Assembly: GCF_009687865.1 (NCBI RefSeq)
Contig: NZ_BLAE01000017.1
Location: forward strand, 1 to 64,000
Length of the DNA stretch: 64,000 nucleotides
Reading direction: 5' to 3'
From: Acrocarpospora macrocephala
Lineage (GTDB): Bacteria > Actinomycetota > Actinomycetes > Streptosporangiales > Streptosporangiaceae
Positions 10,347-27,569 of the stretch are shown piece by piece. The position numbers were made by a program, and so were the translations under genes. The notes beneath the pieces are model-generated. The model was not told where the DNA came from, did not search any database, and saw nothing but the letters and a program-made list of their open reading frames with translations. Position 1 is the stretch's first letter; the number at the start of each line of letters is the position of its first letter.

Positions 10347-10479
10347 GACCTCGCATCTCCTTCCACTCGTGGGAACCCCAGAGGGTCTGAGGGCCCCGGA
10401 GGGAAGGTTAGGCGCGAATGTCCGAAATGTGCTTCCAATCTTTCCTGCTGAAGCGGGTCTGTGGGGGAGAATCTACCCC

Positions 10480-10979: not shown

Positions 10980-11012
10980 GCTGGTGACCTCGCCATTGGC
11001 GAGGTCACCAGC
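10980..11012. terminator. Bidirectional terminator between lrp-like and iclR-like genes
   Basis: Perfect 15-bp stem, GCTGGTGACCTCGCC (10980-10994) with its complement at 10998-11012, around a 3-nt loop. It lies between two convergent genes. Confidence 0.8.
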
Positions 11013-11048: not shown

Positions 11049-11891
11049 TCAGTGCACGAGCTTGCTGCCGATTCGATCGGCGAACGCTTCCGCGAAACTG
11101 TGGAGTTCGGCGACGATGGCCGACGGGTCGGCTGACGCGGACCTTTCCGTAAGGGTGAAGCTCACTCCGATGAGCCCGTCGCTGCGCCGGGGCGTTCGCA
11201 CCGCTATACCGAAGCAGCGCAGGCCTTCGACGATCTCGCCGCTCTCGATCGAGTAGCCCCGGGCGCGGGTCGCTTCCAGCTCCTCGTGGAGGCGGTCGAC
11301 TGATTGGATGGAGCGAGTCGTTATCGGCTCCAGCCGTCCATCCGCCGGCAGCCTCTTCTGAAGGTCCTCGTCGCTCGTCGCCGCGAGCAGGGCCTTGCCC
11401 GTGGCGGTGCAATAGGCCGGGACCGATCGGCCGATCTCGGAGACCAAGCCGAGGTTGAGCGGGTCTCGCCCATCGTGACGGGCGAGGTAGACCACGGACA
11501 GGCCGCTGCCGAGTACCCCCAACTGCACGGTCTGAAGCAGACCCGGATAGGTGCTGCGGCACAGCTCATAGAACTCCTCGACCTCGGTGACGCTCTTGAG
11601 GTAGGAGTTGCTGAGTTCGGCGAGCCGATCCCCCAGTTGGTAGCCGCCGTTGCCGCGTCGGAGCAGGCGCTCGTCGAGCATCGCTCCGCACAGGTTGAGG
11701 ACGGTTGACTTCGGCACCCCGGTGAGCCGGCTCAGGTCGCTGGGCCCCAAGGGCTGCTTCGGGTGCTCGGCGAGCAGCGACAGGATCGCGACAGCGCGAG
11801 TCAGAGCTGGCGAGCGGGAACGGCGGCTCTCCGCACTGTTGGTCATCAAACCCTCCGCCGACGGCGCTGCCGAGTTGGTGTCACCGGCCAT
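11049..11891 (-). CDS. IclR-family transcriptional regulator, candidate master regulator of the 12-26 kb catabolic island
   Basis: A 280-residue regulator. The N-terminal winged HTH (about 28-85) includes ALTRAVAILSLLAEHP and GPSDLSRLTGVPKSTVLNLC. The C-terminal effector domain has the IclR features YCTATGKALLA and RGYSIESGEIVEGLRCFGIAV. IclR proteins bind DNA as dimers or tetramers and respond to aromatic or small organic acids. It lies 3 bp behind the SnoaL-like gene on the same strand. The paired GGTCA boxes at 12398-12433 sit at the head of this transcript and of the divergent catabolic operon, which makes it the best candidate to bind them. Confidence 0.92.
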   Translation of the reverse strand: MAGDTNSAAPSAEGLMTNSAESRRSRSPALTRAVAILSLLAEHPKQPLGPSDLSRLTGVPKSTVLNLCGAMLDERLLRRGNGGYQLGDRLAELSNSYLKSVTEVEEFYELCRSTYPGLLQTVQLGVLGSGLSVVYLARHDGRDPLNLGLVSEIGRSVPAYCTATGKALLAATSDEDLQKRLPADGRLEPITTRSIQSVDRLHEELEATRARGYSIESGEIVEGLRCFGIAVRTPRRSDGLIGVSFTLTERSASADPSAIVAELHSFAEAFADRIGSKLVH

Positions 11892-11894
11892 GAC

Positions 11895-12341
11895 TTACGC
11901 CGGTTGCTGGGGATAGCCGCGCTCAGCATAGTCGAAGCCGCCGAGTTCGAGTCTATTCAGGGACTTGTCCTGGGGCGAAGCGTAGTAGGCGCGGATTTCG
12001 GTGATGAGACCATCCTCATCGAATTCGTACCATTCGGTCCCGCGGAGCACGACCCCGGCCGCCTGCTTGAAGTGCGTCCACTCGCTGACGGCGGACCTGC
12101 GGCCGGGGTCGACCGCGATCGCGTCGACAGTCCACGCCGACCCCCTCGTGCGGACGAGTTCCGCCCAGCGCTCAGCGATATACCGACCTCCGCGCCAGGG
12201 CCCGTCGTACATGTCGGGCGGGAAGTAGTGCACGGCATCAGCGCTCAGGTGGATCGCGACGGCGTCGGGGTCGCCGGACGTGCATGCGTCCATGTACGCC
12301 TGGACGCGGGACTCAAGGTCCGCGGCGGAGATCGTCATCAA
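11895..12341 (-). CDS. SnoaL-like/NTF2-fold protein
   Basis: A 148-residue small alpha+beta protein. It starts MMTISAADLESRVQAYMDAC, then DAVAIHLSADAVHYFPPDMYDGPWRG and WYEFDEDGLITEIRAYY, the classic SnoaL/ketosteroid-isomerase-like cone fold used by hydrolases, isomerases and dehydratases. Either ATG at 12341 or 12338 could start it. It is the first gene of the leftward transcript with the IclR gene and is divergent from the ABC ATPase. A role on a pathway intermediate of the adjacent island is likely; its reaction is unknown. Confidence 0.85.
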   Translation of the reverse strand: MMTISAADLESRVQAYMDACTSGDPDAVAIHLSADAVHYFPPDMYDGPWRGGRYIAERWAELVRTRGSAWTVDAIAVDPGRRSAVSEWTHFKQAAGVVLRGTEWYEFDEDGLITEIRAYYASPQDKSLNRLELGGFDYAERGYPQQPA

Positions 12342-12397
12342 GGGGCCCTTCCAGTTGCCTATGGACAGGCCTGATGCTAGGGACTACCGTAACCCAC

Positions 12398-12433
12398 GGT
12401 CAACATTTTGGTTCGCCGGTCAGTATTTTGATC
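12398..12433. promoter_or_regulatory. Tandem operator pair, 20-bp spacing, IclR-type candidate
   Basis: Two 16-bp sites with the layout GGTCA-N6-TGACC: GGTCA-ACATTT-TGGTT (12398-12413) and GGTCA-GTATTT-TGATC (12418-12433). Their starts are exactly 20 bp apart, two helical turns. They lie between the divergent SnoaL/IclR transcript and the ABC-transporter operon. A closer match to the same pair, with the same spacing, occurs at 26384-26419. Confidence 0.65.
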
Positions 12434-12571
12434 GGTCGCGACCGCGGCGTCAAAAGGGACGTGCACGTGGAATCAAGCAAGACGGAAGTTGTCGGATCGT
12501 CGGCTGCGGTGCATTTGGGCTCTGGCCGCGAAGATCCGCGGCGCCGACCGGAGCAAAGGAGTTCACCACCG

Positions 12572-13399
12572 ATGACGACGGACTCAGGCGAGCTCAGGGT
12601 CGGGACCCGAGGGGCGACGAACGCCAATGTGTCGGCAGCGGCGTTGCAACACGTCCACATGACCTATCAGGCGCGTCGCGGGGAGAACGTCCTGGCGTTG
12701 AAGGACGTATCGCTGGACATCCTCCCGAAAGAATTCGTGACCATCATCGGACCGAGTGGATGCGGCAAGAGCACGCTAATCAAGATCATCGCAGGTCTCG
12801 TGCGCCCCTCGTCCGGAGAGGTGTTGCTGGGCAGTTCCGAGGTCACCGGCCCGTCCGCCGACGTCGGGCTGGTGTTCCAGCAGCCCGTCCTGCTGCCCTG
12901 GAGGAACGTCAGCAAGAACGTCAGCCTTCCCCTTGAGGTTCTCGACAGCGCCAAGAACGACCGTCGCGCCGCCGTCGAGCAGCTCCTCGATCTCGTCGGT
13001 CTGGGCAAGTACGGCAAGCACTACCCGCACGAGCTGTCGGGTGGGATGCAGCAGCGGGTCAGCATCGCGCGGGCGCTCGTCCACGACCCGGACGTCCTGC
13101 TGATGGACGAGCCGTTCGGCGCCCTCGATGCCTTGACTCGTGACCAGATGTCGTTCGAGCTGATGCGCATCTGGAGCGAGCGGTCGAAGACCGTGGTCTT
13201 CGTAACCCACAGCATTCCCGAGGCGATCTTGCTGGCTGACCGGGTGGTCGTCATGTCCAAGTCCCCTGGGGAGATCGCCGAGATCATCGACATCGAGCTG
13301 CCCCGCCCTCGCCGCAACGAAATGGTCAATACCCCCGAGTTCGGGGCGTACGTCCAGCGTGCACGTACGTTGCTCAACGCTGAGACCACCGCGCACTGA
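12572..13399 (+). CDS. NitT/TauT-type ABC transporter ATPase
   Basis: A 275-residue SsuB/TauB-like ATPase. Walker A GPSGCGKST, Q-loop FQQPVLLPW, signature LSGGMQQR, Walker B VLLMDEPF, D-loop GALD and switch His in VVFVTHSI are all present. The ATG at 12572 has AAAGGAG upstream. The open frame reaches further 5', but that part reads as non-coding promoter DNA. It is the first gene of the rightward operon, followed by its permease. The matching binding protein is encoded far away at 23462-24547 in the convergent operon. Family substrates are small anionic or sulfonated/aromatic compounds. Confidence 0.93.
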   Translation: MTTDSGELRVGTRGATNANVSAAALQHVHMTYQARRGENVLALKDVSLDILPKEFVTIIGPSGCGKSTLIKIIAGLVRPSSGEVLLGSSEVTGPSADVGLVFQQPVLLPWRNVSKNVSLPLEVLDSAKNDRRAAVEQLLDLVGLGKYGKHYPHELSGGMQQRVSIARALVHDPDVLLMDEPFGALDALTRDQMSFELMRIWSERSKTVVFVTHSIPEAILLADRVVVMSKSPGEIAEIIDIELPRPRRNEMVNTPEFGAYVQRARTLLNAETTAH

Positions 13400-13457
13400 G
13401 CCCCTGATGTCGGCAGCGAACCAGTTCATCACGTCGAACGAATCGGAGGGTCAGACG

Positions 13458-14306
13458 ATGGCCCAGAAGGTAACAACAGCGGTCGGCTCCGTGGAGCGCA
13501 AGCAGGTCCCCGCACGGCGCAGGTTCAGCCAGCGACCGATCGACTTCTTGACGACGTTCGCCGCGATTGTGGCGGCCATCGCCCTGTGGCACTTCGCCAT
13601 CACGTACTTCGAGGTCGAGTCTTACCTGTTCCCGGCGCCTCTTCCGGTCCTGAACGCTCTCATCGAGGGCTTGAGCGACGGCTCCCTCCTCACCAACGGG
13701 TGGGTGACCCTGAGCGAGGTGCTGATCGGTTTCAGCTTCGGATCGCTGCTGGCGATCACCTTGGCAGTGCTCATCACGCGGTGGCGGTTCGTCGAGCGCA
13801 CCTTCTACCCCTTCATCGTGGCGTTCCAGACCGTCCCGAAGATCGCACTCGCACCGCTCGTCATCACGTGGATGGGCTTCGGCCAGACCTCGAAGATGCT
13901 CATGGCAGGCCTCCTGGCGCTGTTCCCCGTACTCGTCAACACGATCACCGGGCTGAAGTCCGTCGAGCAGGACCAGCTCGACCTGATGCGCGCTCTCCAG
14001 GCCACTGACTGGCAGATCTTCCGTTACGTACGGTTGCCACGAGCCCTGCCCTACATGTTCGCCGGGCTCGAGATCGCCATCGTCTTCAGCGTGATCGGCG
14101 CCATCGTCGGGGAGTTCGTGGGCGCCAAGGCGGGACTCGGCTATCTGATCCAGTCCAGTCAGGCCACTTTGGACGCGACCACCACCGTCGCCGTGCTCGT
14201 CGTCCTCTCGGTCATGGGACTCGTCCTGCACCGCATCGTGATCTTCGCGAAGAGCCGCCTCGTGTTCTGGCTCCGCACCGACGACGGCGCCGTCGTGGGC
14301 GTCTGA
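13458..14306 (+). CDS. NitT/TauT-type ABC transporter permease
   Basis: A 282-residue SsuC/TauC-like permease with six hydrophobic segments and the EAA loop (QDQLDLMRALQATDWQIFRYVRLPRALPYMFAGLE region) that contacts the ATPase. The ATG at 13458 is preferred because GGAGGG stands 7 bp before it; an ATG at 13407 is in frame but poorly placed. It works with the ATPase directly upstream and the lipoprotein at 23462-24547. Confidence 0.93.
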   Translation: MAQKVTTAVGSVERKQVPARRRFSQRPIDFLTTFAAIVAAIALWHFAITYFEVESYLFPAPLPVLNALIEGLSDGSLLTNGWVTLSEVLIGFSFGSLLAITLAVLITRWRFVERTFYPFIVAFQTVPKIALAPLVITWMGFGQTSKMLMAGLLALFPVLVNTITGLKSVEQDQLDLMRALQATDWQIFRYVRLPRALPYMFAGLEIAIVFSVIGAIVGEFVGAKAGLGYLIQSSQATLDATTTVAVLVVLSVMGLVLHRIVIFAKSRLVFWLRTDDGAVVGV

Positions 14307-14318
14307 GGGGTATTCGTC

Positions 14319-15071
14319 GTGGCCCTCGTCCGTCCAGAAGGAATCAACGTGCCGATCCATGTAGGGGTGATGGTGCCGTCATTGAACACGGTCATCGAGC
14401 AAGAGTGGCACGAACTGGCCCCTACCGGGGTGCACGTCCACCTGGAGCGAATCCATGTGACCCAGACGGACGTGTGCGACGATCACGGCTTCGCGGCACT
14501 CTACGGTCAGGTGACCGGCGGTATGGCCCAGAGCCTGGAGCGACTGGGGGAGTGCCGGCCTGACCGGATCGTGCTGGGCATGGCGTCGGTGTTCTACGGA
14601 GGTGCCGACGGCTCCAAGGCTCTCGTCGAGGACCTCCAGCGCCACACCGACATCGAGCTCGTCGCCGCATCGCACAGCCTCGTGACCGCCCTGCGCGAGA
14701 TGGGCGTTGAGCGGGTCGGGCTCCTCAACCCCTACCAGGGGTTGGACGACGGTCAGATGGAACGCTTCTTCGTCGAGTCCGGTTTCGAGCTGACCGGAGC
14801 CGGCGGCCTGCCCGGCACATCGATCCGCGACGTCCCGCGAACCTCCGTCGAGGACCTGGTGGCGTGCCTCGCACGGCTGGCGGAGACAGGTCCGCAGGCC
14901 ATCGTGCAGGTCGGGGCGAACCTGGGGATCGTCGGCCTTTTGGAATCGGCCGAGGCCTGGCTCGGCATCCCCGTGCTCTCTTCCAACGCGACCGGGCTGT
15001 GGGCTGCTCTCCGCAGCTGCGGACGAGAAGACCGGTTGTACGGATACGGACGGCTATGGCGAGACCACTGA
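14319..15071 (+). CDS. Maleate isomerase/Asp-Glu racemase-like protein lacking both catalytic cysteines
   Basis: A 250-residue protein of the Asp/Glu racemase, maleate cis-trans isomerase and arylmalonate decarboxylase superfamily: start GVMVPSLNTVIEQEW, central LVAASHSLVTALREMGVERVGL, and C-terminal VLSSNATGLWAALRSCG. In active isomerases the first catalytic Cys follows the beta-strand where this protein has LGMASVFYGG. The second is in an S-C-T-x-L motif that reads VQVGANLG here. Both cysteines are therefore missing. A GTG at 14319 follows GAGGGG. Its paralogue is the next gene, 20 bp away. Possible roles are a decarboxylase/isomerase with different chemistry or a binding protein. Confidence 0.8.
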   Translation: MALVRPEGINVPIHVGVMVPSLNTVIEQEWHELAPTGVHVHLERIHVTQTDVCDDHGFAALYGQVTGGMAQSLERLGECRPDRIVLGMASVFYGGADGSKALVEDLQRHTDIELVAASHSLVTALREMGVERVGLLNPYQGLDDGQMERFFVESGFELTGAGGLPGTSIRDVPRTSVEDLVACLARLAETGPQAIVQVGANLGIVGLLESAEAWLGIPVLSSNATGLWAALRSCGREDRLYGYGRLWRDH

Positions 15072-15091
15072 GCTCGGGACGGGAGACAGGG

Positions 15092-15781
15092 ATGACGGCG
15101 ATACGATCCGCCGAGGACGTCCGGCGGATCGGCGTCCTGATCGAGGCGTCCCACCGCACGATCGAGTCCGCCCTGTGGTCGGCACTGCCGCCCGGCGCGA
15201 CCCTCACCACCGCGCGCGTCTCGAACCCGGTCCGACCCGGGTCCCAGGACGGCTCCGGCGCGCACCCGGATCCGTTGGCGGCAGGCCTGGACAGCGTCAT
15301 GACGACCGAGCCGCAGGCCGTGGTGGTGGCCATCGAGAGCGCGGGCCTGGGCGCCGGCCTGGCCGGTCTGCGCGATATCGAGCATTCCTTGTCCACGCAC
15401 GCCCAGGTCCCTGTCATCACCATGAGCGGGGCGGTGGTCGAGTGGTTGCTGGTGCGCCCGTGGCTGCGGCACCTCGCCCTGGTCGCTCCCGTCGACCCAT
15501 GGACGCACGAACAGTTCGTCCGGGTGCTGCGCGAGGCGTCCCTGCAGGTCGGCGTCGGCGCGGACGAGCCCCTCGTCGACGCGGCGGCGACATCTCAGCA
15601 GATTATCCGAGCCTACCGGGCCTGCGCGGTCTCCGGTCCGGACGCCATCGTCCAGTGGGGCGGTCAAGGCTCCGACGTCGTCGGCGACCTCACGCCGTGG
15701 ACGAGATCGCCCGTCGTGTCGAGCGTCCGCGCCCTCCTGGAGGTCGCCCTCGACCGCATGTCCCGACACGCCACGCCCTAG
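15092..15781 (+). CDS. Second Asp/Glu racemase-fold protein, also cysteine-free
   Basis: A 229-residue paralogue-like protein starting MTAIRSAEDVRRIGVLIEAS, with the same alternating alpha/beta layout (VPVITMSGAVVEWLLVRPWLRHLALVAPVDPW area, SGPDAIVQWGGQGSDVV, SPVVSSVRALLEVAL). The first Cys position reads AIESAGLG and the second VQWGGQGS, so both canonical residues are absent. It has only one Cys (in RACAVSG), which is not at an active-site position. GGGAGACAGGG precedes the ATG at 15092. Adjacent to and co-transcribed with the previous gene, it may form a heteromer with it. Confidence 0.7.
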   Translation: MTAIRSAEDVRRIGVLIEASHRTIESALWSALPPGATLTTARVSNPVRPGSQDGSGAHPDPLAAGLDSVMTTEPQAVVVAIESAGLGAGLAGLRDIEHSLSTHAQVPVITMSGAVVEWLLVRPWLRHLALVAPVDPWTHEQFVRVLREASLQVGVGADEPLVDAAATSQQIIRAYRACAVSGPDAIVQWGGQGSDVVGDLTPWTRSPVVSSVRALLEVALDRMSRHATP

Positions 15782-15827
15782 GCCGACCACGACTACGCGC
15801 ACCTGAGAAAGGATGTGTGCTGGTGAG

Positions 15828-17024
15828 ATGACCCAGACTCACAACACGGGCGAGCCGGTGAGCTATGACCTCGTCCTGCGCGGCGGGCGGGTGTTCGACA
15901 CCACGCTCGCGCCGACTCCGACCGTCTTGGACATCGCCATCACCGGCGGACGGGTGGAGGCTGTGGCGCCGCACGTCGACGGCGCGGGGAAGCGGGAGAT
16001 CGACTGCACCGACCGCGTCGTGACCCCGGGACTGCTGGACGTGCACGTCCACTGCTTCGAGGGAATGCTCATGAACGTCGGCATGTCGTCCTACGACGCG
16101 ACCCTGCGTCGTGGCGTGGTCGGCTGTGTCGACGCGGGCACGTCAGGAGCCTCCAACTTCCGTGGCTTCCGTCGCTTCGTGGCGGACGGCAACGAGGCCC
16201 GCGTCCTGGCGTTCCTCAACGTCTCGGTGCTCGGAGTGACGGACACGCGGCACGGCGAGTTGCCGGACGCTTCGGTCATCCACGTGGACGACGCGGTGAA
16301 CGCCGCCAAGGCGAACCCCTCGATCATCCGCGGATTCAAGGTGCGGCTGTCCCGGAACGTCGCGTCGGAACCGGCGAAGTCGCTGGACCTGGCCCGCGAG
16401 ATCGCTGACCTGGCGGGCCTGCCACTGATGGTTCACATCAGCAAGACGGACATCGGCATCGACGACATCCTGGCGCGGCTTGCCCCCGGAGACGTCGTCA
16501 CCCACGTCTTCACCGGGCTCGAGGGAGGCATCCTCGCGAACGGCTCGGTGCGGCCTGCGGCCTGGGCGGCCCGTGAACGGGGAGTGCTGTTCGACATCGG
16601 TCACGGCCGTACCCAGTTCGACCACCGGGTGGCCCGTATCGCGCTCGACGAGGGCTTCGTCCCCGACTTCCTGGGTTCGGACCTCAGCAACGGCAACCAG
16701 TTCGGTCCGGCCTTCGATCTCCCGACCGTCATGGCCAAGATGGTCACCCTGGGGATGCCGATGGAGCGCGTGGTCGCGGCGACGACGCTCCGCGCCGCGG
16801 AGTTCCTCGGGCTGCGGGACGAGGGCTACGGCGCGATCACGGTGGGCGACCCGGCGTTCGTCACCGTCATGGAGCAGCTCGACCACGCGGACTCGCTGCC
16901 GGACGCCTCCGGGTCGGAGCTCCAGGTCAGGCGGCTGGAGCCGCTGTTCGCCGTCAACAGGGGCGTCGTCCATGACTCCGATCCGTGGCGGGGCGGGCAG
17001 CCCGAGCCGCCGGCGGAGTGGTGA
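15828..17024 (+). CDS. Amidohydrolase/deacetylase-type metallohydrolase (EF_0837/Atu3266-like)
   Basis: About 398 residues of amidohydrolase-superfamily beta-barrel. The metal site can be read in order: His-x-His in LLDVHVHCF, a bridging Lys in IRGFKVRLS, His in LMVHISKT, His in VVTHVFTG, and Asp in LGSDLSNGN. The pattern VDAGTSGASNFRGFRRFV plus GVLFDIGHGRTQFD matches the EF_0837/Atu3266 group; Atu3266 hydrolyses acylated alpha-hydroxy acids such as acetyl-mandelate. It would remove an acyl or amide group at pathway entry. The ATG at 15828 is used; one at 15813 is too close to the AAAGGA site. Confidence 0.85.
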   Translation: MTQTHNTGEPVSYDLVLRGGRVFDTTLAPTPTVLDIAITGGRVEAVAPHVDGAGKREIDCTDRVVTPGLLDVHVHCFEGMLMNVGMSSYDATLRRGVVGCVDAGTSGASNFRGFRRFVADGNEARVLAFLNVSVLGVTDTRHGELPDASVIHVDDAVNAAKANPSIIRGFKVRLSRNVASEPAKSLDLAREIADLAGLPLMVHISKTDIGIDDILARLAPGDVVTHVFTGLEGGILANGSVRPAAWAARERGVLFDIGHGRTQFDHRVARIALDEGFVPDFLGSDLSNGNQFGPAFDLPTVMAKMVTLGMPMERVVAATTLRAAEFLGLRDEGYGAITVGDPAFVTVMEQLDHADSLPDASGSELQVRRLEPLFAVNRGVVHDSDPWRGGQPEPPAEW

Positions 17025-17099
17025 TGCATCACCTCAACGGCAGGACTCGGGGATTCGCTACGTCGTGGGTCGGGTGGCCGGCCAGAGGAGGAGGGCTTC

Positions 17100-17924
17100 G
17101 TGAGCTCGTGGGTGAAGCTGGTCGTGGACGAGGACGAGGCCGCGGGCATCGTGTGCGTCACGCTCAACCGACCTGAGAAGCGGAACGCGCTGGACACCGA
17201 ACTGCTGAGCGAGTACTCCAGCGTCCTGGAGTCATACCTGGGCTCCCCGACGATCCGGGTCATCGTGACCCGGGGCGCGGGGACGGTGTTCTGCGCCGGC
17301 ATGGACTTGCACGATCTCAAGGACTGGGCCCACAGGTGGGACACCGGGGAGGTGGCGTGGTCCGACGCCGGGCCCCTGTCGAGGGCGATGCGGCTGCTGC
17401 GTGAGCACACCTGCATCACGGTCGCCTCCGTCCAGGGCGTGTGCGCCGGCGGTGGGATCGCCCTGGTGGTGGCCCACGACCTGGCGGTCGCCTCGGACAC
17501 GGCGCGGTTCATCCTGCCGGACACGGCGCGGGGAAGCTTCGGCGCCGTCGCGGCCGCCGCGCTCCATTTCGCCGTCCCGACCAAGGTCGCCTTCGACATG
17601 CAGCTCACCGGTCGCGAACTCCTCGGACCAGAGGCGATGTCGCTGGGGCTTGTGTCTCGATCGGTACCGCCCGATCGGCTGCCGGCCGAGACGGAGGAGG
17701 TCGCCGCCCAGGTCGCGAGCCGGCGACGGGAACCGCTGATCCACGCCAAGATGGCGCGTCGCCTCAACGAAGGCCGGCCCTTGATGGACACCATGAGCGT
17801 CGATCTGCTCGTCCGGACGAAGCAGGACGTCGTCCGGAACTCGTTCAGCGACGTCACCGGATTCCTCGCCTCGCGCAAGGGCGCGGCGGACGCCCCGCCG
17901 GAGGCCTCGCAGGCGATCCGCTAG
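17100..17924 (+). CDS. Enoyl-CoA hydratase/isomerase family protein
   Basis: A 274-residue crotonase-fold protein with N-terminal VTLNRPEKRNALDTEL, oxyanion segment FCAGMDLHDL, and VQGVCAGGGIALVVAHDLAVAS. The residue following the second loop (PDTARGSFGAV) lacks the usual second Glu, so a standard hydratase is not certain. It starts at a GTG at 17100 with GAGGAGG upstream. A 75-bp gap follows the amidohydrolase. It probably acts on a CoA thioester made by the class III CoA-transferase later in the operon. Confidence 0.9.
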   Translation: MSSWVKLVVDEDEAAGIVCVTLNRPEKRNALDTELLSEYSSVLESYLGSPTIRVIVTRGAGTVFCAGMDLHDLKDWAHRWDTGEVAWSDAGPLSRAMRLLREHTCITVASVQGVCAGGGIALVVAHDLAVASDTARFILPDTARGSFGAVAAAALHFAVPTKVAFDMQLTGRELLGPEAMSLGLVSRSVPPDRLPAETEEVAAQVASRRREPLIHAKMARRLNEGRPLMDTMSVDLLVRTKQDVVRNSFSDVTGFLASRKGAADAPPEASQAIR

Positions 17925-18001
17925 CCCGGACTCGTCACGTCCCGACCGGCAACCAACCCCCTGGCGCGAGCCCATCACACAAGAGTGCGGAGATTGACAG
18001 A

Positions 18002-18766
18002 ATGACGGAGCCCATCGTGCCCGCGGGCTCGACCTCCCGGTCGCTACGGAGCCGCCTCGCCGATGGCGAGCGTGTGCAAGGCATCATCTTCGCCTTGCCC
18101 TTCACCCTCGAGCTCGAGATCGCGGCGCGTTGCGGGATCGACTTCTTCGTCGCCGACCTCGAGCATGGGCCCGCGGACTACGTGCATCTGCAACAGCACA
18201 TCGCGCTGGCCGCGGCCCACGGCTGCGACGTCCTCGTTCGGACCCATGCCCACGACCCGTCCGGCATCTCCCGCGTCCTCGATCTGGGTGCGGCCGGTTT
18301 GATGTTCCCGCACGTGGGCTCCAGGGCCGAGGCCGAGCATCTCGTCGCCCTGGCCACGTACCCGCCTGCCGGTGTCCGGGGCCTGTCGACCAGCACACCC
18401 GCGGCGCGCTACGGCCGGTGGTCCGCCGCGCAGACCGTGGCCGACGCCCGCGAGCGGACTCTGTTGATCGCCATGGTGGAGACGGTCGAGGGTGTCGAGG
18501 ACGCCCACGGGATCGCCGACGTCGACGGCATCGACGCGCTCTTCGCGGGGACTGTCGACCTCGCGGCGTCGATGGGGATGCCGGGCGCGGTCGGTGATCC
18601 TCGGGTACGGGAGCTCGCCCACAGCGTGGCGCCGCAGGCGCGACGTGCCGGCAAGTGGGTGCTGGAGGGGGCGGCCGGCTCGACCAATGGCCAGTTCGTC
18701 GTGCACAACGGAACCAAGCTCCTGACCGGTGCGTTCGAGCGCGCTTTCGGAACGCGGGAGACCTGA
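18002..18766 (+). CDS. HpcH/HpaI-type aldolase
   Basis: A 254-residue class II pyruvate-type aldolase. Metal and substrate motifs are FFVADLEHGPAD near residue 45, RTHAHDP, GAAGLMFPHVGSRAEAE, and MVETVEGVEDA with metal-binding Glu. Family members cleave 4-hydroxy-2-oxo acids to pyruvate plus an aldehyde. That aldehyde or semialdehyde could feed the two aldehyde dehydrogenases of the convergent operon. The ATG at 18002 has GGAG upstream. Confidence 0.9.
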   Translation: MTEPIVPAGSTSRSLRSRLADGERVQGIIFALPFTLELEIAARCGIDFFVADLEHGPADYVHLQQHIALAAAHGCDVLVRTHAHDPSGISRVLDLGAAGLMFPHVGSRAEAEHLVALATYPPAGVRGLSTSTPAARYGRWSAAQTVADARERTLLIAMVETVEGVEDAHGIADVDGIDALFAGTVDLAASMGMPGAVGDPRVRELAHSVAPQARRAGKWVLEGAAGSTNGQFVVHNGTKLLTGAFERAFGTRET

Positions 18767-18869
18767 TGCGCGTCGCGCCGCCGCTCCGTCTCAGCACGCC
18801 GTACCGACTCCCACCGCCGGGGCCGACACGCTCGCCTCGGACGCCCACGACTCGCAGTTAGGAGCAGCA

Positions 18870-19688
18870 ATGCCGGAAACGCGGCGAATACTTCTGGACG
18901 GCGTCGTCACCACGGTGACGCGTGAAGCCGATGAGCTCGTCCTCGGTGACGGGCGCCGGGTGGCCGCCGCCAAGGCCGTCCACCTTCCCCCGTGCGTACC
19001 CATGAAGATCATCTGCGTGCATCTCAATTACGCGAGCCGGCGTGACCAGTTCGGCCACCCGGGGACGGCGACACCCACGTACTTCCACAAGCCGACCTCC
19101 TGCTTGAACAGCCACGGCGGGGCGGTCGTGAAGCCCGAGAACTGCCAGTACCTCAACCTCGAGGGAGAGGTCGGCATCGTCATCGGACGGACGGCACGCC
19201 ACGTGCCGCCGGAACGCGCCGCGGAGTACATCGCCGGGTACACGATCGCCAACGACTTCGGGCTGCACGATTTCCGGGACACCGACGCCGGTTCCATGCT
19301 CCGGGTGAAGGGATCGGACACGCTGGGGTCCGTCGGCCCGGGTCTCGTCACCGACTGGGACTTCCGGGGAAAGTCCATCCGGACGCTCGTCAACGACGAC
19401 GTGGTCCAGGAGGACACGACGGACGGCATGATCTGGGACATGCACTACCTCGTGGCCGACCTGGCCCGACTGATCACTCTGGAACCGGGTGATCTCATCC
19501 TGTCGGGAACACCGGCCAACTCGCGTCCTGTGGACATCGCCGACCGCGTCACGGTAGAGGTCGAGGGCCTGGGCCGGTTGACCAACCACATCGTCGCGGG
19601 ACCTCCGGTGCCGGACTACGCGGGCGCCATGCCCACCGACTCCGAGCACGTGCGAGGGGTCGCGTACGGGACCGGGGTGCCCGCATGA
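18870..19688 (+). CDS. Fumarylacetoacetate hydrolase-family protein
   Basis: A 272-residue FAH-family enzyme. The metal triad is visible as EGEVGIVIG (Glu-x-Glu) and TIANDFGLHDFR (Asp). VKGSDTLGSVGPGLV and GDLILSGTPAN are the substrate-loop and end motifs of the 2-hydroxyhepta-2,4-diene-1,7-dioate isomerase/oxaloacetate decarboxylase group. It could hydrate, isomerise or decarboxylate a 2-oxo-enoic acid just before the HpaI-type aldolase. The ATG at 18870 is set by a GGAG site 5 bp before it. Its stop overlaps the next start by 4 bp. Confidence 0.92.
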   Translation: MPETRRILLDGVVTTVTREADELVLGDGRRVAAAKAVHLPPCVPMKIICVHLNYASRRDQFGHPGTATPTYFHKPTSCLNSHGGAVVKPENCQYLNLEGEVGIVIGRTARHVPPERAAEYIAGYTIANDFGLHDFRDTDAGSMLRVKGSDTLGSVGPGLVTDWDFRGKSIRTLVNDDVVQEDTTDGMIWDMHYLVADLARLITLEPGDLILSGTPANSRPVDIADRVTVEVEGLGRLTNHIVAGPPVPDYAGAMPTDSEHVRGVAYGTGVPA

Positions 19689-20941
19689 CCGCCGACTCGA
19701 ACGACTCGGATGCGCCGCACGGACCCCTCGCCGGGGTGACCGTCCTCGACCTCACGAGCTACGTGTCCGGTCCGTTGTGCACCATGATCCTGGGCGACCT
19801 CGGTGCGATGGTGATCAAGGTGGAGGAGCCCGGGAAGGGCGACGGCATCCGGGCCTGGTCGGCCGAGGCGGGACCGGACAACGGCTACTTCCTCGCGGTC
19901 AACCGCAACAAGCTCAGCGTGGCTCTCGACCTCACGACCGAGGGGGGCCGGACAGCGTTGACGAGGCTCGTGGCGCGCAGTGACGTCTTCATCCACAACA
20001 TGCTGGCGCGATCCGAGAAGGCGTTGCGCATCTCCGAGGAGGACATCAGGGCGATCAAGCCAGACATCGTCTACAGCGTGATCGCCGGCTACCCGCGCGG
20101 CAGCACCGAGCCGGCCTTCGACTTCATCATGCAGGCGGCGACGGGACTGATGGGTCTCACGGGTGAACCCGACGGCCCGCCGGTCAAGGTGCCCTTCCCG
20201 ATCTTCGACGTCACCGCCGCCTACAACGCCTGCATCGGCATCGTCGCCGCGCTCTGTGGCCAGCGTGAACGTCGCTCCGCTCCCGAGGGGCGCCGGGTGG
20301 ACGTCAACATGTACGACGCGGCGCTCGCGTCCATGCCGAACCTGCTCGGCAACTACCTGGCGGATGGCACGGTGCCCCACCGGACCGCCGGCAGCGTCCA
20401 CGCGAACATCGCACCCTACGAGCTGTTCAAGACTGACGAGGGATGGCTGGCCCTCGGTGGCGGCACGCCCGGCCAGTGGACGTCGCTGTGCTCCGTGCTC
20501 GGCCTGGAGCGGCTTGCGGACGACGACCGCTTCAAGGACAACCCCTCTCGCGTCCGCAACCGCGCGGCACTGCACGAACTGATCGAGGCCCGGCTCGCCA
20601 CCGCATCCATCGACACCTGGATCGACGCGTTGAAGGCGTGCCGGATTCCGGTGACGAAGGTCAACGACTTGGGCGCCGTACTGGCCAAGACGGACATGGT
20701 CCAACCAGTGGATCACCCGACGCGTGGCACGGTCCACCTGCCGACGAGCCCCATCGTCGTCGACCGCGCGCCCCACGCCGCGGGGAGCCCGCCCCCTCGT
20801 CTGGGCGAGCATACGCGCGACGTCCTGATGGCCGTGGGGGGACTCGAGGACGAGCAGGTCGACCGGCTGCGTGACGCCGGAATCGTCAGCGAACCCCCTG
20901 CCCGAGCAGAGGATCTCGAGGACGCGCGTGGGACGGGCTGA
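19685..20941 (+). CDS. Class III (CaiB/BaiF) CoA-transferase
   Basis: A 418-residue CaiB-type transferase. It starts with GVTVLDLTSYVSGPLCTMILGDLGA and KVEEPGKGDGIR, typical of the nucleotide-binding end, then VNMYDAALASMPNLLGNY with the catalytic Asp in the MYDAAL context, and the C-terminal PVTKVNDLGAVL and LGEHTRDVL blocks. It transfers CoA between carboxylic acids, activating the pathway acid for the hydratases. The 4-bp overlap with the FAH-family gene indicates translational coupling. Confidence 0.93.
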   Translation: MTADSNDSDAPHGPLAGVTVLDLTSYVSGPLCTMILGDLGAMVIKVEEPGKGDGIRAWSAEAGPDNGYFLAVNRNKLSVALDLTTEGGRTALTRLVARSDVFIHNMLARSEKALRISEEDIRAIKPDIVYSVIAGYPRGSTEPAFDFIMQAATGLMGLTGEPDGPPVKVPFPIFDVTAAYNACIGIVAALCGQRERRSAPEGRRVDVNMYDAALASMPNLLGNYLADGTVPHRTAGSVHANIAPYELFKTDEGWLALGGGTPGQWTSLCSVLGLERLADDDRFKDNPSRVRNRAALHELIEARLATASIDTWIDALKACRIPVTKVNDLGAVLAKTDMVQPVDHPTRGTVHLPTSPIVVDRAPHAAGSPPPRLGEHTRDVLMAVGGLEDEQVDRLRDAGIVSEPPARAEDLEDARGTG

Positions 20942-20993
20942 CCTGTCGGCTGCCGGCACGAGCGAACCACACCATCAGCCAAAGGGAGAGACC

Positions 20994-21743
20994 ATGGCAC
21001 TCGTCCGTTACGCCGTCGAGCGGGGGTGCGCCGTCATCACGCTCGACTCGCCCCGCAACCGCAATGCGTTGTCGGCCCAGCTCATGCGGGAGCTGTCCAC
21101 CCACCTGACCACGGCCGCCGAGTCGGACGACATCCGGTGCGTCGTCCTCACCCACACGGGTTCGACCTTCTGCGCCGGGGGCGACCTGGCCGAGGGCGTC
21201 TCGGCGCGGACCACGGAGCGGTTTCGTGACCTCCTGCGCCAGGTGGTCGAGCTGCCCAAGCCGGTGCTGGGGCGTATCGACGGGCATGTTCGCGCTGCGG
21301 GCATCGGGCTGGTGGGAGCGTGTGACATCGTCGTGGCGGGGCCCAGGACGACGTTCGCCTTCACCGAGGTCCGCATCGGCGTCGCGCCGGCGATCATCAC
21401 GCTGACGACACTCAGCCGGATGTCGGAACGTGCGGCCGCCCGGTACTGCCTGACCGGCGAGACCTTCGACGCGACGACGGCCGCCGCCACCGGGCTGGTC
21501 ACCGTGGCGGCGCAGGACGTGGACACCGAACTCGAGCGGATGCTGGAGGCGATCCGGGGCTGCTCGCCGCAGGGGCTCGCGGAGACCAAGCCGTTGACCA
21601 CTCGAGGTGTCCTGGACGCGTTCGACGCCCGCGCCGTAACGTTGCAGCAGCAGTCCGCGCGACTCTTCGCCTCGCCGGAGGCACAGGAGGGAATGGCCGC
21701 GTTCCTGGAGCGGCGGCAGCCGCGCTGGGCGTTGCCTGCGTGA
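20994..21743 (+). CDS. Enoyl-CoA hydratase/isomerase family protein
   Basis: A 249-residue crotonase-fold protein: LDSPRNRNALSAQLM, oxyanion segment FCAGGDLAEGV, RIDGHVRAAGIGLVGACDIVVA, and FTEVRIGVAPAII. The second segment has RAAG in place of the usual AGG, and Glu in TEVRIGVAP is kept. It is the last gene of the rightward operon (AAAGGGAGAG before the ATG at 20994). It converges on the MMSDH gene with about 118 bp between them. Confidence 0.9.
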   Translation: MALVRYAVERGCAVITLDSPRNRNALSAQLMRELSTHLTTAAESDDIRCVVLTHTGSTFCAGGDLAEGVSARTTERFRDLLRQVVELPKPVLGRIDGHVRAAGIGLVGACDIVVAGPRTTFAFTEVRIGVAPAIITLTTLSRMSERAAARYCLTGETFDATTAAATGLVTVAAQDVDTELERMLEAIRGCSPQGLAETKPLTTRGVLDAFDARAVTLQQQSARLFASPEAQEGMAAFLERRQPRWALPA

Positions 21744-21861
21744 CGTCGATCGTGCGGCGGGCATCCTGCGGGGGAGGCGCATCCCGAACGCCATTTTCAA
21801 GGCGCCGGACCAGCTCGGCGCCGACCGTCACCGGGACGAGCTGGCGCGAGCCCGGGTGGCG

Positions 21862-23370
21862 TCACACGTTGCGCGGGAAGCCGAGTTCCAGCCCGCCCTG
21901 TGGCCGGTTCGCGGGATCGATCCACCGCGTGGTCACCACCTTGCCGCGGGTGAAGAACTGCACCCCATCCGTTCCGTGTGCGTGGGTGTCTCCCATCAGC
22001 GACTGCTTCCACCCTCCGAAGGAGTAGTAGGCGACTGGAACCGGGACAGGGATGTTCACCCCGATCATCCCGACCTGCACGTCCGCCTCGAAGCGTCGCG
22101 CGGCACCGCCGTCGTTGGTGAACAACGCCGCCCCGTTGCCGTAGGGGTTCCCATTGACCAGCGCGACGGCCTCGTCGTACGTGCTGACTCGGACAACGCA
22201 GAGAACGGGGCCGAAGATCTCCTCCTGGTAGACCTTCATGTCGGGTGTGACGTGGTCGAACAGGGTGGGCCCCAGCCAGAACCCGTCCTGGATGCCGTCT
22301 GGTCGCACGTCCCTGCCGTCGACCACGACGGTTGCCCCGTCCTGCTCGCCGGCGTCGATGAAGGACGCGACCCGGTCACGGTGCGCGCGGGTGATCAGCG
22401 GCCCCATGTCGGCCTCGGGGTCGGCTTCAGCACCGACGACCAGTGTCCTCGTCCGATCGGCGACCCTGGCCGTGAGGTCGTCGGCGATCTCGCCCACGGC
22501 CACGAGGACGCTGACGGCCATGCAGCGCTGGCCGGCGCTGCCGTAGCCCGCGTTCACCGCGGCGTCGGCAGCCAGGTCGAGATCCGCGTCGGGAAGGACG
22601 ACCATGTGGTTCTTGGCGCCGCCGAGCGCCTGCACGCGCTTACCGTGCTTGGACGACGCCTCGTAGACGTACTGGGCGACGGGAGTGGACCCGACGAAGC
22701 TGATGGACTGCACGACCGGGCTCTCGATGAGCGCGTCGACAGCCTCCTTGTCCCCCTGCAGCACGTTGAAGACCCCGTCCGGTAACCCGGCTCGCTTCCA
22801 GAGGTCAGCGATCCAGAGCGCGGCCGTCGGGTCCTTCTCACTCGGCTTCAAAACGACCGTGTTGCCGGTCGCGATGGCGAGTGGGAAGAACCACATCGGC
22901 ACCATGGCGGGGAAGTTGAACGGCGAGATGATGCCGACGACGCCAAGGGGGTCACGCTTCGAATGGACGTCGACACCGGTCGAGACGGACTCAGAGTGGC
23001 CACCCTTGAGTAGGTGCGACACGCCGCAGGCGAATTCAACGACCTCCTGACCACGGGCGATCTCCCCGAGGGCGTCCGATGGCAGCTTGCCGTGCTCTGC
23101 GGTGATGATGGCGGCGAGCTCGTCCCGGCGGGAGTTAAGCAGCTCACGGAAGGCGAAGAGGATCTGGGTGCGCCGGGCCAGGGAGGTACGACCCCACGAC
23201 CCGGCTGCCCGCGCCGCCGCCGCGATGACGTGATCGGCGTCCTCGCTCGACGCGAGTGCCACTCGGCCCGTCTCGCGGCCCGTGGCCGGATCGGTGACCT
23301 CGGCCCATCGTGTGCCGGTGCCGTTGAACGGCCGACCAGCAGCCCAGTGCGTGATGGTGACGTCGGACAT
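21862..23370 (-). CDS. mmsA: CoA-acylating methylmalonate-semialdehyde dehydrogenase
   Basis: A 502-residue ALDH-superfamily enzyme. MmsA-specific features include IISPFNFPAMVPMWFFPLAIA, KPSEKDPTA, the nucleophile in GSAGQRCMAVSV (with GQRCM rather than GQxCxA), PYGNGAALFT and FGGWKQSLMGDTHAHG. It converts malonate or methylmalonate semialdehyde plus CoA and NAD to acetyl- or propionyl-CoA. It starts at the ATG at 23370. It is the last gene of the leftward operon headed by the 26384-26419 operator pair. Confidence 0.93.
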   Translation of the reverse strand: MSDVTITHWAAGRPFNGTGTRWAEVTDPATGRETGRVALASSEDADHVIAAAARAAGSWGRTSLARRTQILFAFRELLNSRRDELAAIITAEHGKLPSDALGEIARGQEVVEFACGVSHLLKGGHSESVSTGVDVHSKRDPLGVVGIISPFNFPAMVPMWFFPLAIATGNTVVLKPSEKDPTAALWIADLWKRAGLPDGVFNVLQGDKEAVDALIESPVVQSISFVGSTPVAQYVYEASSKHGKRVQALGGAKNHMVVLPDADLDLAADAAVNAGYGSAGQRCMAVSVLVAVGEIADDLTARVADRTRTLVVGAEADPEADMGPLITRAHRDRVASFIDAGEQDGATVVVDGRDVRPDGIQDGFWLGPTLFDHVTPDMKVYQEEIFGPVLCVVRVSTYDEAVALVNGNPYGNGAALFTNDGGAARRFEADVQVGMIGVNIPVPVPVAYYSFGGWKQSLMGDTHAHGTDGVQFFTRGKVVTTRWIDPANRPQGGLELGFPRNV

Positions 23371-23461
23371 TGTGGTGTTTCCCTCCGAGTAATGTCGCGG
23401 GCTACGCCGCTTGACCTGCCACACATGGGTCACGCGATCAGAACCTCCGCGACGATTCGCC

Positions 23462-24547
23462 TCAGCCGCGGTCCGCGTCGGTCGTGACCGCAGCGGCGTC
23501 GAAGTCGTTGATCTTCGCTACCAGGTCGTTGGTGTACAAGACGTTCGGGTCGACATCCTTGGTGATCATGCCGTTGTCGGTCGCGAACTTGACGGTGTCG
23601 GCGAAGGCGCGGTCCGGGTAATGGCCCCACAGCTTCTCGTCGGCACCGAGCTCCAGGTTCGGGATCTGGGCGTTGAGAATCGCGAGACTCTGCCTCATGG
23701 CCTCCGCGTCGTCGGCTCCGGCCGGTTTTGTCTCGGGCTGTGCCTTCCACATCATGGTGATGGCCGCCTCGGGGTTCTCGAGAGTGAACAACGTCGCCTT
23801 CGCGATCGCGCGCCCGATCGCCGCGTATGTGTCGGGGTCGTTCCTCAGGTTCTCCGCTCTCGTCAGCAGCCCGTGCTGGATGACAGCCAGCTGGCTCGTC
23901 GAGAGGTTGCGGGTCTCGAATCCGGCGTTCTTCCAGAGCACGGGGAAGACGTCGTTGACCAGCATGGCATCGACCTGCTTGCCCTTTATCGCCGTGAGCG
24001 CCTGTGTCCCACCACCGGTCGGGACGAGCGTCACGGCGTCAGGGGCGAGCCCGGCCTCGGCCAGGTAGGCCTTGACGTAGTAGACGCCGACCGCGGACAG
24101 GCTCTGGACGCCGACCTTCTTGCCCTGGAGGCCGCGCAGGTCCTTTATCTCGCTGTCCGCTGGGACCGCCAGGCTGTAGATCGGCCGACGGAAGTAGTTG
24201 TAGAAGTACTCCAGTCCCAGACCCTTACCTTCTTGAGCCGCGATGACCACGGGCTCTGGGCTGGCCAGCCCGACGGAGTCGGCGTCCCGGGCGACGGCCG
24301 TGGCGGCGAGCTGGCTGCTGTTGGTCAGGACGTAATTCACGTTGAGGTTCTCCTTCGCGAAGTACCCCTTCGCCTGCGCCACGGCGAAAGCCGAGTGGGA
24401 CACGTCCCACGACGGGGTGGGCATGACGAAAGTGATCGACTTCGCCCCGCCGCCGGTCCCCGATTCGGCACCCGACCCGCAGGCAGCGAGCAGCGTGATG
24501 GACATGGCGACGAGCGCCGGCAATGCGATCTTCTTGTGGTGTCCCAT
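23462..24547 (-). CDS. NitT/TauT-type substrate-binding lipoprotein
   Basis: A 361-residue exported lipoprotein: basic MGHHKK start, hydrophobic core, lipobox LLAAC at about residues 18-22. The mature part is an NMT1/SsuA-like binding fold (TFVMPTPSWDVSHSAFAVAQAKGYFAKENL; ATAVARDADSVGLASPEPVV; LRGLQGKKVGVQSLS). The ATG at 24547 has GGAG 8 bp upstream. The cognate ATPase and permease are at 12572-14306, in the other operon; no other NitT/TauT membrane components are present here. Confidence 0.93.
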   Translation of the reverse strand: MGHHKKIALPALVAMSITLLAACGSGAESGTGGGAKSITFVMPTPSWDVSHSAFAVAQAKGYFAKENLNVNYVLTNSSQLAATAVARDADSVGLASPEPVVIAAQEGKGLGLEYFYNYFRRPIYSLAVPADSEIKDLRGLQGKKVGVQSLSAVGVYYVKAYLAEAGLAPDAVTLVPTGGGTQALTAIKGKQVDAMLVNDVFPVLWKNAGFETRNLSTSQLAVIQHGLLTRAENLRNDPDTYAAIGRAIAKATLFTLENPEAAITMMWKAQPETKPAGADDAEAMRQSLAILNAQIPNLELGADEKLWGHYPDRAFADTVKFATDNGMITKDVDPNVLYTNDLVAKINDFDAAAVTTDADRG

Positions 24548-24672
24548 GGGAATCTCCATAGTTCTTGGTCTGGCGGGAGCGGGACTGGTCGTGACGGCGC
24601 AGTTCGGCCCTCGGTGTTCGTTGTCGCTGGGCATCGGCTCGGAAGGTGTCCCGGTCGAGTTCGGCCGCTTCG

Positions 24673-26187
24673 TCACCTTCTGCTACTGATCCGGTCGCGG
24701 AGTTCCTCAGGGACGACGCCCTGGGGTGCGTTCTGATAGGTGACGGGCCGGAGGAACCGCCGAATCGCCGATGGGCCGACTGAGCTGTGCAGCGCGTTGC
24801 TGGCTGCGGGCCACGGTCCACCGTGAGTCATCGCTGCCGTGACCGCGACTCCGGTGGGATAACCGTTGTAGACGACGCGGCCGACCTTGGGGAGCACCGC
24901 CTCAGTGATCGCCGCGGTCAGCTCCGTCTCGTCCTCGGTGCTGTGTACGGCTGCCGCGAGAGCCCCCTCCAAGCCGGCCAGGCCGTCGATCATCCTTGAC
25001 GCCGACTCGTACCGGACGACGATCGCGGCCGGGCCGAAGCACTCGCGGAGCATCGACCGGTCGAGATCGCTCAACGACACCTCCAGGAGCGCGGCTGTGG
25101 CCAGGCAGCCACCCTCGTAGTCGGGGTCGGATCTCCCGCTGGCGGGGTCGGCGACCCGGGCCACCGCCGTGACCCGGGGGTGGGACAGCAGCGCCTCGAG
25201 CCCGGCCTGGTACGTGCGTCGGGTCTGCGCGGTCAGCATCACCACAGGCGTCATCTCGGCGACGTGTGCTGCCGCGGCGGCGACCAGCCGGTCACCGTCC
25301 GGTCCGGCGGGCACGAACAACAGCCCTGGCTTGGTGCAGAACTGGCCGCCGTTCAAGGTGAACGATGCCGCGGCCCCCCGGCCGATCTCCTCGGCCCGCT
25401 GCTGGGCCGCACCGGGCGTGACGATCAGCGGATTCACCCCGGCGAGCTCGCCGTAGAACGGTATCGGATCCGGTCGTCCCGCAGCCAGGTGGTGCAGCTC
25501 GCGCCCGACCGCCAGCGAGCCGGTGAAGCAGACCGCTCGGATGCGCGGGTGCTCGACGAGCCGGCGCCCGGCGTCGGTACCGAACACCAGCTGCACCGCG
25601 TCCTCGGGAGCACCGGTTTCGGCAGCGGCCTGACGCCACGCCTCGAGCATCAGCACCGACGTCTCCGGGTGCCCTGGGTGGCACTTGACCACGACGGGGC
25701 AACCTGCGGCGAGCGCCGCCGTCGTGTCGCCGCCGAGCACCGAGAACGCGAAGGGGAAGTTGCCGGCTCCGAAGACCGCAACCGGCCCCAACGGGACGAG
25801 CATCCGGCGCAGATCCGGAACAGGCGGTTCCACGTCCGTACGCGCCGCCGTGACAACCGCCTCCTGGTAGGAGCCGTCCTCGACGACGTCGGCGAATAAG
25901 CGCAGCTGTCCCGCCGTACGCGCCAGCTCCCCGGTCAGCCGGTGGGAACCCAGGGCGGTTTCGCGGTCAGCGACCTCCAGCAGCTTCTCGCCGCGCTGCT
26001 CCACGACCGCGGCGATTCGGCGCAACAGGAGTGCCCGCGCCGCGCGACCCGAACGGACAAGTTCGCCAGCCACCCCCATCGCAGCCTCGGCCGCCGCGTC
26101 AGCGCGCGAGACCGATGTCGAGGCGGCGACCAACTGGACCCGCCGCCCGGTTCGCGGGTCGAGACTCCACACATCGCTCACGCTCAC
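24673..26187 (-). CDS. NADP-type aldehyde dehydrogenase, alpha-ketoglutarate-semialdehyde dehydrogenase-like
   Basis: About 504 residues of the KGSADH branch of ALDHs. Visible are VFGAGNFPFAFSVLGGDTTAALAAG, KCHPGHPETS, FTGSLAVGREL, the active-site FTLNGGQFCTKPGL (Cys), and C-terminal NGYPTGVAVTAAMTHGGPWPA. This group oxidises 2,5-dioxopentanoate and other acidic semialdehydes. Two GTG starts (26187 and 26181) follow AAGGGAG; 26187 is listed. It is the first gene of the leftward operon, 126 bp before the lipoprotein gene. Confidence 0.9.
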   Translation of the reverse strand: MSVSDVWSLDPRTGRRVQLVAASTSVSRADAAAEAAMGVAGELVRSGRAARALLLRRIAAVVEQRGEKLLEVADRETALGSHRLTGELARTAGQLRLFADVVEDGSYQEAVVTAARTDVEPPVPDLRRMLVPLGPVAVFGAGNFPFAFSVLGGDTTAALAAGCPVVVKCHPGHPETSVLMLEAWRQAAAETGAPEDAVQLVFGTDAGRRLVEHPRIRAVCFTGSLAVGRELHHLAAGRPDPIPFYGELAGVNPLIVTPGAAQQRAEEIGRGAAASFTLNGGQFCTKPGLLFVPAGPDGDRLVAAAAAHVAEMTPVVMLTAQTRRTYQAGLEALLSHPRVTAVARVADPASGRSDPDYEGGCLATAALLEVSLSDLDRSMLRECFGPAAIVVRYESASRMIDGLAGLEGALAAAVHSTEDETELTAAITEAVLPKVGRVVYNGYPTGVAVTAAMTHGGPWPAASNALHSSVGPSAIRRFLRPVTYQNAPQGVVPEELRDRISSRR

Positions 26188-26383
26188 GCGCTCCCTTCGG
26201 TACCAGAGCAACCGCCACTGACCGACAAGTCATCGACGCTCGCCTTCACGTACGGCGAGCGCCGTCCATCGTCTTCGCCGCTCAGCGGTCCTCAATCGCC
26301 GCCGGGCCGCTCCAAACGCCCCTTGAGACGTCGATCAGATTGGTCCAGTGACAGGGTCGAAGGTAGCGGCTAACCGCCACGGT

Positions 26384-26419
26384 GGTCAATATGCTGAGTA
26401 GTCGGTCAATATACTGACC
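26384..26419. promoter_or_regulatory. Tandem operator pair heading the leftward ALDH operon
   Basis: GGTCA-ATATGC-TGAGT (26384-26399) and the perfect-armed GGTCA-ATATAC-TGACC (26404-26419), again 20 bp apart from start to start. The pair lies about 200 bp upstream of the leftward ALDH gene. It shares arms, inner TAT and spacing with the pair at 12398-12433. Confidence 0.7.
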
Positions 26420-26966: not shown

Positions 26967-27569
26967 TCACCTGGAGTGCGTCACGTGGACCGAGTTTCGG
27001 AGCGCGTTGAGCACGTGCCGGATCATCTGGCCCGGAGTGTTGGCCTTGAGGAAGGTCGAGATACCGCCGTAGGTGAGTTCGAGGACGATCCCGCCGAGGT
27101 CGAGTGCGCTGATGCCCGGCTCGCGGCCGGGGAGGAGCTTGCTCTGCAGGAGCGCGCCGGCCTGTTCCCACTGACTCACGAAGAGCTGACGGTGCCGATC
27201 GCTCAGGGTGCCGTCGCGCTGCGCCCGACGCATGAACTCGATGGCGATGATGCCCCACTTCTGTTCGCTCGCACGGGAGTCGCACCACCGGGCGACGATG
27301 TCGATCACCTCGTCTGGATCCGTGACCTCGCGAAGCAGTTCGGAGAGCTCCTCGACGTCGTGGCCGGCATTCCCTTCGAGCAACTCCAGCAGGATCTCCT
27401 CTTTCGAGGAGAAGTTGGAATAGAAGGCTCCCTTCGAGAAGCCGGCCTCCTCGGCAATGCGTTCGACCGAGGCGCCGTCATAGCCGTCGCGCGCGACGAC
27501 ATCCAGCGCCGAGAGAAGGAGCTTCTCCCGCGTGAGTGCCTGCTTCTGCTCTCGCGTCAGCCGAGCCAT
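26967..27569 (-). CDS. TetR-family transcriptional regulator
   Basis: A 200-residue regulator. The N-terminal HTH (about 8-55) reads REKLLLSALDVVARDGYDGASVERIAEEAGFSKGAFYSNFSSKEEIL in consecutive parts and is textbook TetR. The C-terminal ligand domain resembles the group ending in LGGIVLELTYGGISTFLKA. It is encoded between the Liv-type importer operon and the DoxX gene. It is the only regulator of region 5, so the palindrome at 32927-32940 is its most likely target. Confidence 0.92.
   Translation of the reverse strand: MARLTREQKQALTREKLLLSALDVVARDGYDGASVERIAEEAGFSKGAFYSNFSSKEEILLELLEGNAGHDVEELSELLREVTDPDEVIDIVARWCDSRASEQKWGIIAIEFMRRAQRDGTLSDRHRQLFVSQWEQAGALLQSKLLPGREPGISALDLGGIVLELTYGGISTFLKANTPGQMIRHVLNALRNSVHVTHSR

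Follow-up and report, generated by a model that had tools for sequence, protein, structure and literature searches.

Two tandem pairs of palindrome-like sites as putative operators of a local IclR regulon in Acrocarpospora macrocephala

Tandem sites at the outer ends of two convergent clusters

The stretch analysed here, called the window, comprises the first 64,000 nucleotides of contig NZ_BLAE01000017.1 of Acrocarpospora macrocephala (RefSeq assembly GCF_009687865.1). It carries two facing gene clusters for the uptake and breakdown of an organic compound and, at their outer ends, two pairs of palindrome-like sites. These pairs are very probably the tandem operators of one local IclR regulon. 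Plus-strand open reading frames (ORFs) from 12572 to 21743 (the left operon) and minus-strand ORFs from 26211 to 21862 (the right operon) converge at about 21.8 kb, as an earlier reading made from the letters only (the sequence-only reading) had described. Membership of these presumed operons follows from strand and close spacing. A terminator-like site was looked for between them, at about 21.8 kb, and none was found. The same reading had described an ABC transporter split between the operons, with the ATPase and permease on the right and the binding lipoprotein on the left. The sides are in fact the reverse: ATPase and permease belong to the left operon, and the lipoprotein of the right operon probably works with them. 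As the units on its two sides diverge, the left pair also faces the snoaL-iclR unit. The right pair has the end of a DoxX gene on one side and on the other the minus-strand dehydrogenase operon, upstream of which it is placed (Table 1).

Table 1. Operator sites, promoter-like sites and genes at the two clusters (L039: related locus, see text).
Feature	Position	Strand	Basis or remark
Left tandem operator, site 1	12398..12413	none	GGTCAACATTTTGGTT; weakest of the four sites; read off sequence
Left tandem operator, site 2	12418..12433	none	GGTCAGTATTTTGATC; read off sequence
Right tandem operator, site 1	26384..26399	none	GGTCAATATGCTGAGT; read off sequence
Right tandem operator, site 2	26404..26419	none	GGTCAATATACTGACC; exact GGTCA-N6-TGACC
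Promoter-like TTGACC-N18-TAGCAT facing snoaL-iclR	12374..12403	-	consensus scan and alignment; putative function
Second promoter-like TTGACG-N17-CAAAAT	12425..12453	-	-10 inside left operator; consensus scan; putative function
IclR-family regulator, proposed reader of both pairs	11049..11891	-	Pfam IclR_C 4.2e-24, HTH_IclR 9.9e-11
SnoaL-like protein, first gene of snoaL-iclR unit	11895..12341	-	Pfam SnoaL_2 2.5e-12; ATG probably 12338
ABC transporter ATPase (nitrate/taurine type), left operon gene 1	12572..13399	+	family match
ABC transporter permease	13359..14306	+	Pfam BPD_transp_1 5.2e-31
Arylmalonate decarboxylase/maleate isomerase-like protein (P0005)	14319..15071	+	Pfam Amdase 4.4e-19; PDB matches
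Orphan ORF P0019	14864..15781	+	weakly like P0005 (22% identity, E 0.009); start probably further in; no match in Pfam, NCBIfam or PDB at thresholds used
Dihydroorotase-like amidohydrolase	15813..17024	+	family match
Enoyl-CoA hydratase/isomerase 1	17100..17924	+	family match
HpcH/HpaI aldolase	17960..18766	+	family match; start chosen by us within ORF 17441-18766
Fumarylacetoacetate-hydrolase-like (FAH-like) enzyme	18729..19688	+	70% to L039
CoA-transferase family III	19685..20941	+	family match
Enoyl-CoA hydratase/isomerase 2, left operon last gene	20871..21743	+	family match
Methylmalonate-semialdehyde dehydrogenase family, right operon last gene	21862..23433	-	TIGR01722 675.4 bits, cut-off 448.5
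Substrate-binding lipoprotein (NMT1/SsuA type)	23462..24676	-	Pfam NMT1 1.3e-31
Aldehyde dehydrogenase, right operon gene 1	24673..26211	-	48% to L039; start probably near 26187

Direct reading placed all four sites at the positions given by the sequence-only reading, with starts exactly 20 bp apart in the left and right pairs alike. That reading had taken them for one and the same 16-bp site, GGTCA-N6-TGACC. The tandem repetition is real, but the four sites differ and only one is exact, the letters matched being 7/10, 9/10, 8/10 and 10/10 for the sites starting at 12398, 12418, 26384 and 26404, respectively. Their shared core, GGTCAnnATnnTG, describes them better. The sites are palindrome-like with, in positional order, 4, 5, 4 and 7 of 8 positions complementary. 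When compared in the same orientation, the left and right 36-bp pairs were identical at 25 of 36 positions. The best match to either pair elsewhere in the window reached 20 in that orientation, and no reverse-strand position gave more than 23. A lone palindrome is weak evidence for an operator: with up to two mismatches, GGTCA-N6-TGACC matched 104 times in the window, compared to 39 expected from shuffles.

Rarity of the pairs and counterparts at related IclR loci

The pattern GGTCANNATNNTG-N7-GGTCANNATNNTG was present at two places in the 12.1-Mb genome, both of them the window pairs, and its reversed control at none. Two copies of TCANNATNNTG separated by 5–13 nt gave, over the whole genome, both window pairs and one match on contig C35. 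The 20-bp version of the fitted pattern matched in two of 198 genomes, A. macrocephala itself (both pairs) and G002 (one place), and its reversed control matched in one (G031). The first pattern and its gapped and 20-bp versions were fitted to the window sites, and the matrix test described below weighs more. The sequence-only reading had proposed a genome-wide check of whether the paired motif occurs at chance frequency; run here with the fitted pattern, this check found only the two window places and did not refute the proposal.

The place in G002 (about 7427–7457 of locus L013) is a divergent TetR/SDR promoter with the palindrome-like sequences TCACCATAGTGA and CTCAGCATAATGA at 20 bp. It was rejected as a relative of the window operators because of its TetR and SDR neighbours and its different motif. 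Promoter similarity beyond the operators was also rejected, as 173 of 2000 shuffles and 1699 of 5000 random window pairs scored at least as high as observed.

The closest IclR relative found (54% identity) is encoded at locus L039 of Micromonospora sp. NBRC 107566. The scan used short peptide patterns and retained the best 80 of 277 relatives, so that there may be further close ones. The L039 operon encodes an MFS carrier, a SnoaL protein (62%), an enzyme of the mandelate-racemase/muconate-lactonizing type, an FAH-like protein (70%), the IclR protein and an aldehyde dehydrogenase (48%). Divergent from it are genes for an ABC ATPase, a binding protein and a permease, with an Asp/Glu-racemase-like gene further on. 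The divergent promoter region carries GGTCAGCATATTGACC-GCC-GTTCAGCATCTTGACC, a tandem palindrome in a 19-bp register and the one such place found in that 6.7-Mb genome; a search limited to 20 bp had missed it. With a matrix made from these two sites alone, and spacings of 16–25 allowed, the window pairs ranked 1 and 2 (scores of 39.1 and 29.6) and the third match scored 20.3. The recognition helices of the window and L039 proteins are near-identical (VPKSTVLNLC and VPKATVLNIC, respectively). The two clusters thus share related IclR, SnoaL, FAH and aldehyde dehydrogenase proteins and a tandem operator in a divergent promoter, whereas L039 differs by its single operator found, its 19-bp register, its MFS carrier and enolase-superfamily enzyme, and the other binding-protein families of its ABC transporter.

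A family matrix, built from the four window sites and the two sites of L039, was run over 79 loci around related IclR genes. It yielded 50 distinct tandem pairs at 19 bp and none at 20 bp, every other spacing between 14 and 30 yielding 0–4, while three permuted matrices gave 0, 0 and 1 pairs at 19 bp. At least one 19-bp pair was found in 35 of the 79 loci, at least two in 19 and at least three in 10. The loci are not independent, many being from close Streptomyces and two couples (L064/L077 and L073/L082) overlapping on the same contigs, and L039 matches the matrix by construction. Conservation of a tandem operator near related regulators was seen, in sum, in L039 and in these 35 loci. The IclR tree has 78 rows, three having been dropped (L086 and L088, short; L107, with a stop inside the match) and L041 and L058 omitted because they duplicate L011 and L038. 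It was rooted at the midpoint for drawing, and long branches were flagged, that of the window included. The window protein is the sister of L039 (100/99). The 35 rows with 19-bp pairs all lie among the 51 on the window's side of a 100/98 split, with none among the 27 across it.

When a simpler motif was counted over 81 loci, 18 pairs were spaced at 19 bp, one at 20, and six each at 15, 21 and 30; its reversed control gave one pair, at 29. The lone 20-bp pair came from L041, on the same contig as L011 (Allosalinactinospora lopnorensis). At positions 7133–7168 of L011, the intergenic sequence GTTCACAGATGTGATC-TCGA-TTTCACGCTGATGAAC, in a 20-bp register, precedes an FAH-like gene that adjoins another IclR gene, whose product is 30% identical to the window IclR. 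This pair has no AT centre and falls below the matrix threshold. It may represent a second case of the 20-bp register among actinomycete IclR operators. A laxer matrix threshold added two weak 20-bp pairs, in L093 and L098. At the loci of the Actinopolyspora IclR relatives (L043, L045 and L047), a 19-bp tandem pair is accompanied by an aldehyde dehydrogenase gene close by. The product of this gene is 49–50% identical to that of the first right-operon gene of the window, which suggests that these loci share a pathway step with the window cluster.

Proposed joint control of the operons

Joint control of both operons by the IclR protein encoded in the snoaL-iclR unit, which the sequence-only reading had put forward, is supported by how rare the pairs are genome-wide, by the comparable tandem palindrome at the promoter of the L039 operon, which encodes the closest IclR relative found, by the ranking of the window pairs with the L039-only matrix, and by the tandem pairs in 35 of 79 relative loci, all on one side of the tree split. 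We propose that two dimers of the IclR protein, set about two helical turns apart and together making a tetramer, would bind each pair and block the promoter at each operator. We consider this reading of the pairs highly probable. Most likely the tetramer would keep snoaL-iclR and both operons repressed in the absence of an inducer, presumably some substrate or intermediate of the pathway; once it is released, the three transcription units would switch on together, including the transporter parts in two operons.

The proposed block of the promoters is based on the outer half-site TTGACC, which at the left operator is the -35 hexamer of the predicted snoaL-iclR promoter and, less clearly, at the right operator that of the dehydrogenase operon. 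Two promoter-like sites overlap the left operator, for a mean of 0.0 in shuffles, and TTGACC is invariant across three aligned promoters.

Several observations weigh against this model. The consensus scan found no promoter for the dehydrogenase operon, where the candidate -10 is a poor TACCTT, and none on the plus strand that would serve the left operon. The site at 12398, taken alone, ranked 10 among single sites with the L039 matrix, and 44 of the 79 relative loci were without a 19-bp pair at the threshold used. Neither window pair has the 19-bp register that is a feature of the window's IclR subfamily: their register of 20 differs from that of L039 and of the matrix-found pairs elsewhere. 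Finally, the strict pattern KTCANNATNNTGAM, occurring twice with a gap of 3–8 nt, was present in none of 394 genomes, although by construction it misses the window pairs; its reversed control matched in one genome (G396).

The main rival concerns only the sign of the control. The IclR protein might read both pairs and activate the operons, which is compatible with its being their reader. Catabolic IclR regulators include activators, such as PcaU/PobR, and the lack of a left-operon promoter in the consensus scan might be expected under activation. The coincidence of the invariant half-site with the -35 hexamer fits repression, at least at snoaL-iclR, and we regard activation as possible though clearly the less probable sign. 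That a different regulator reads the pairs appears improbable. A TetR protein is encoded near the right pair (26967–27569), a first look at the genome returned 50 candidates for the IclR protein, and the tandem palindromes of G002 lie at a TetR/SDR promoter. However, the left pair adjoins snoaL-iclR itself, the L039 pair precedes the operon encoding the closest IclR relative found, and the fitted pair pattern was present nowhere else in the genome, all of which disfavours a TetR protein or another IclR of the genome. As for a chance or non-regulatory repeat, single palindromes with two mismatches are indeed common in the window, but the tandem arrangement is rare and was recovered by a matrix made from L039 only, which makes such an origin very hard to accept.

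Since L039 has 19 bp, the most economical place for a shift to 20 is the branch of the window itself. The two window pairs have 20 bp in common and L039 yielded a single operator, so that the simplest history is a shift followed by duplication of one operator; the second window operator would probably have arisen in this lineage as a copy of the first. A stronger version holds that 19 bp is fixed across the IclR clade and that in the window lineage both operators went to 20 while the dimer-dimer contact changed to compensate, its regulon becoming orthogonal to those of its relatives. This is unlikely, and we consider it slightly more so because of the 20-bp pairs in L041, L093 and L098. The difference of 19 versus 20 bp from the closest relative would permit a clean test of how strictly IclR tandem spacing is read. 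The model itself provides an unusual cluster for uptake and degradation with a two-operator regulon that can be tested, and unites the split transporter.

Neighbouring genes and known systems

The domains of the window IclR exceed the Pfam cut-offs (41.7 bits against 22 for the HTH and 85.5 against 24 for IclR_C). At E 1e-40, matches to the protein came from 3 of 100 relatives and, across the phylum, from 3 of 396 genomes, both counts including its own genome. For the amidohydrolase, 3 of 296 genomes gave a match, and for the Amdase-like protein 6 of 396 did, their own genome again being among them. The whole cluster was not met elsewhere in the neighbourhoods inspected around these amidohydrolase and Amdase matches, which were distant and arranged differently. 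Between iclR and a convergent Lrp/AsnC-like gene, at positions 10980–11012, a 15-bp hairpin (counted by eye), GCTGGTGACCTCGCC-ATT-GGCGAGGTCACCAGC, looks like a bidirectional terminator; it contains GGTCACC. In the long ORF 9904–10932 the Lrp/AsnC domain matches begin only at about residue 194, which makes it probable that translation truly starts far downstream of the first ATG.

The best solved-structure match to the window IclR was PDB 3mq0 (104 bits), the repressor of the blcABC operon, which we take to be BlcR. It is likewise an IclR-type protein and, by its PDB name, a repressor, but its sequence is distant, and the comparison concerned the protein alone. A literature search on BlcR, NpdR and TtgV returned no paper on those operators among the matches listed.

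Tandem palindromes with centres 18–22 nt apart, mainly 19–21, were described for IclR proteins in 94 orthologous groups, and binding of a tetramer to them was proposed (Suvorova and Gelfand 2021, PMC8222616). The passages of that work considered here do not name the window regulon or its GGTCA half-site variant. For NpdR of Rhodococcus opacus HL PM-1, listed for 2,4,6-trinitrophenol use, the motif is GTTCMRYATMRTGAWS (PMC8222616, Table 1). Compared by eye, it has the same length and a similar core as the window sites, whereas the best of the latter have outer bases GG/CC instead of GT/AC. The window sites likewise stand in tandem, and their centre spacing of 20 bp falls within the published 18–22 range. 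The arrangement is ordinary for the IclR family, the 20-bp spacing being a small oddity, and this regulon adds another case to the tandem IclR operators already described.

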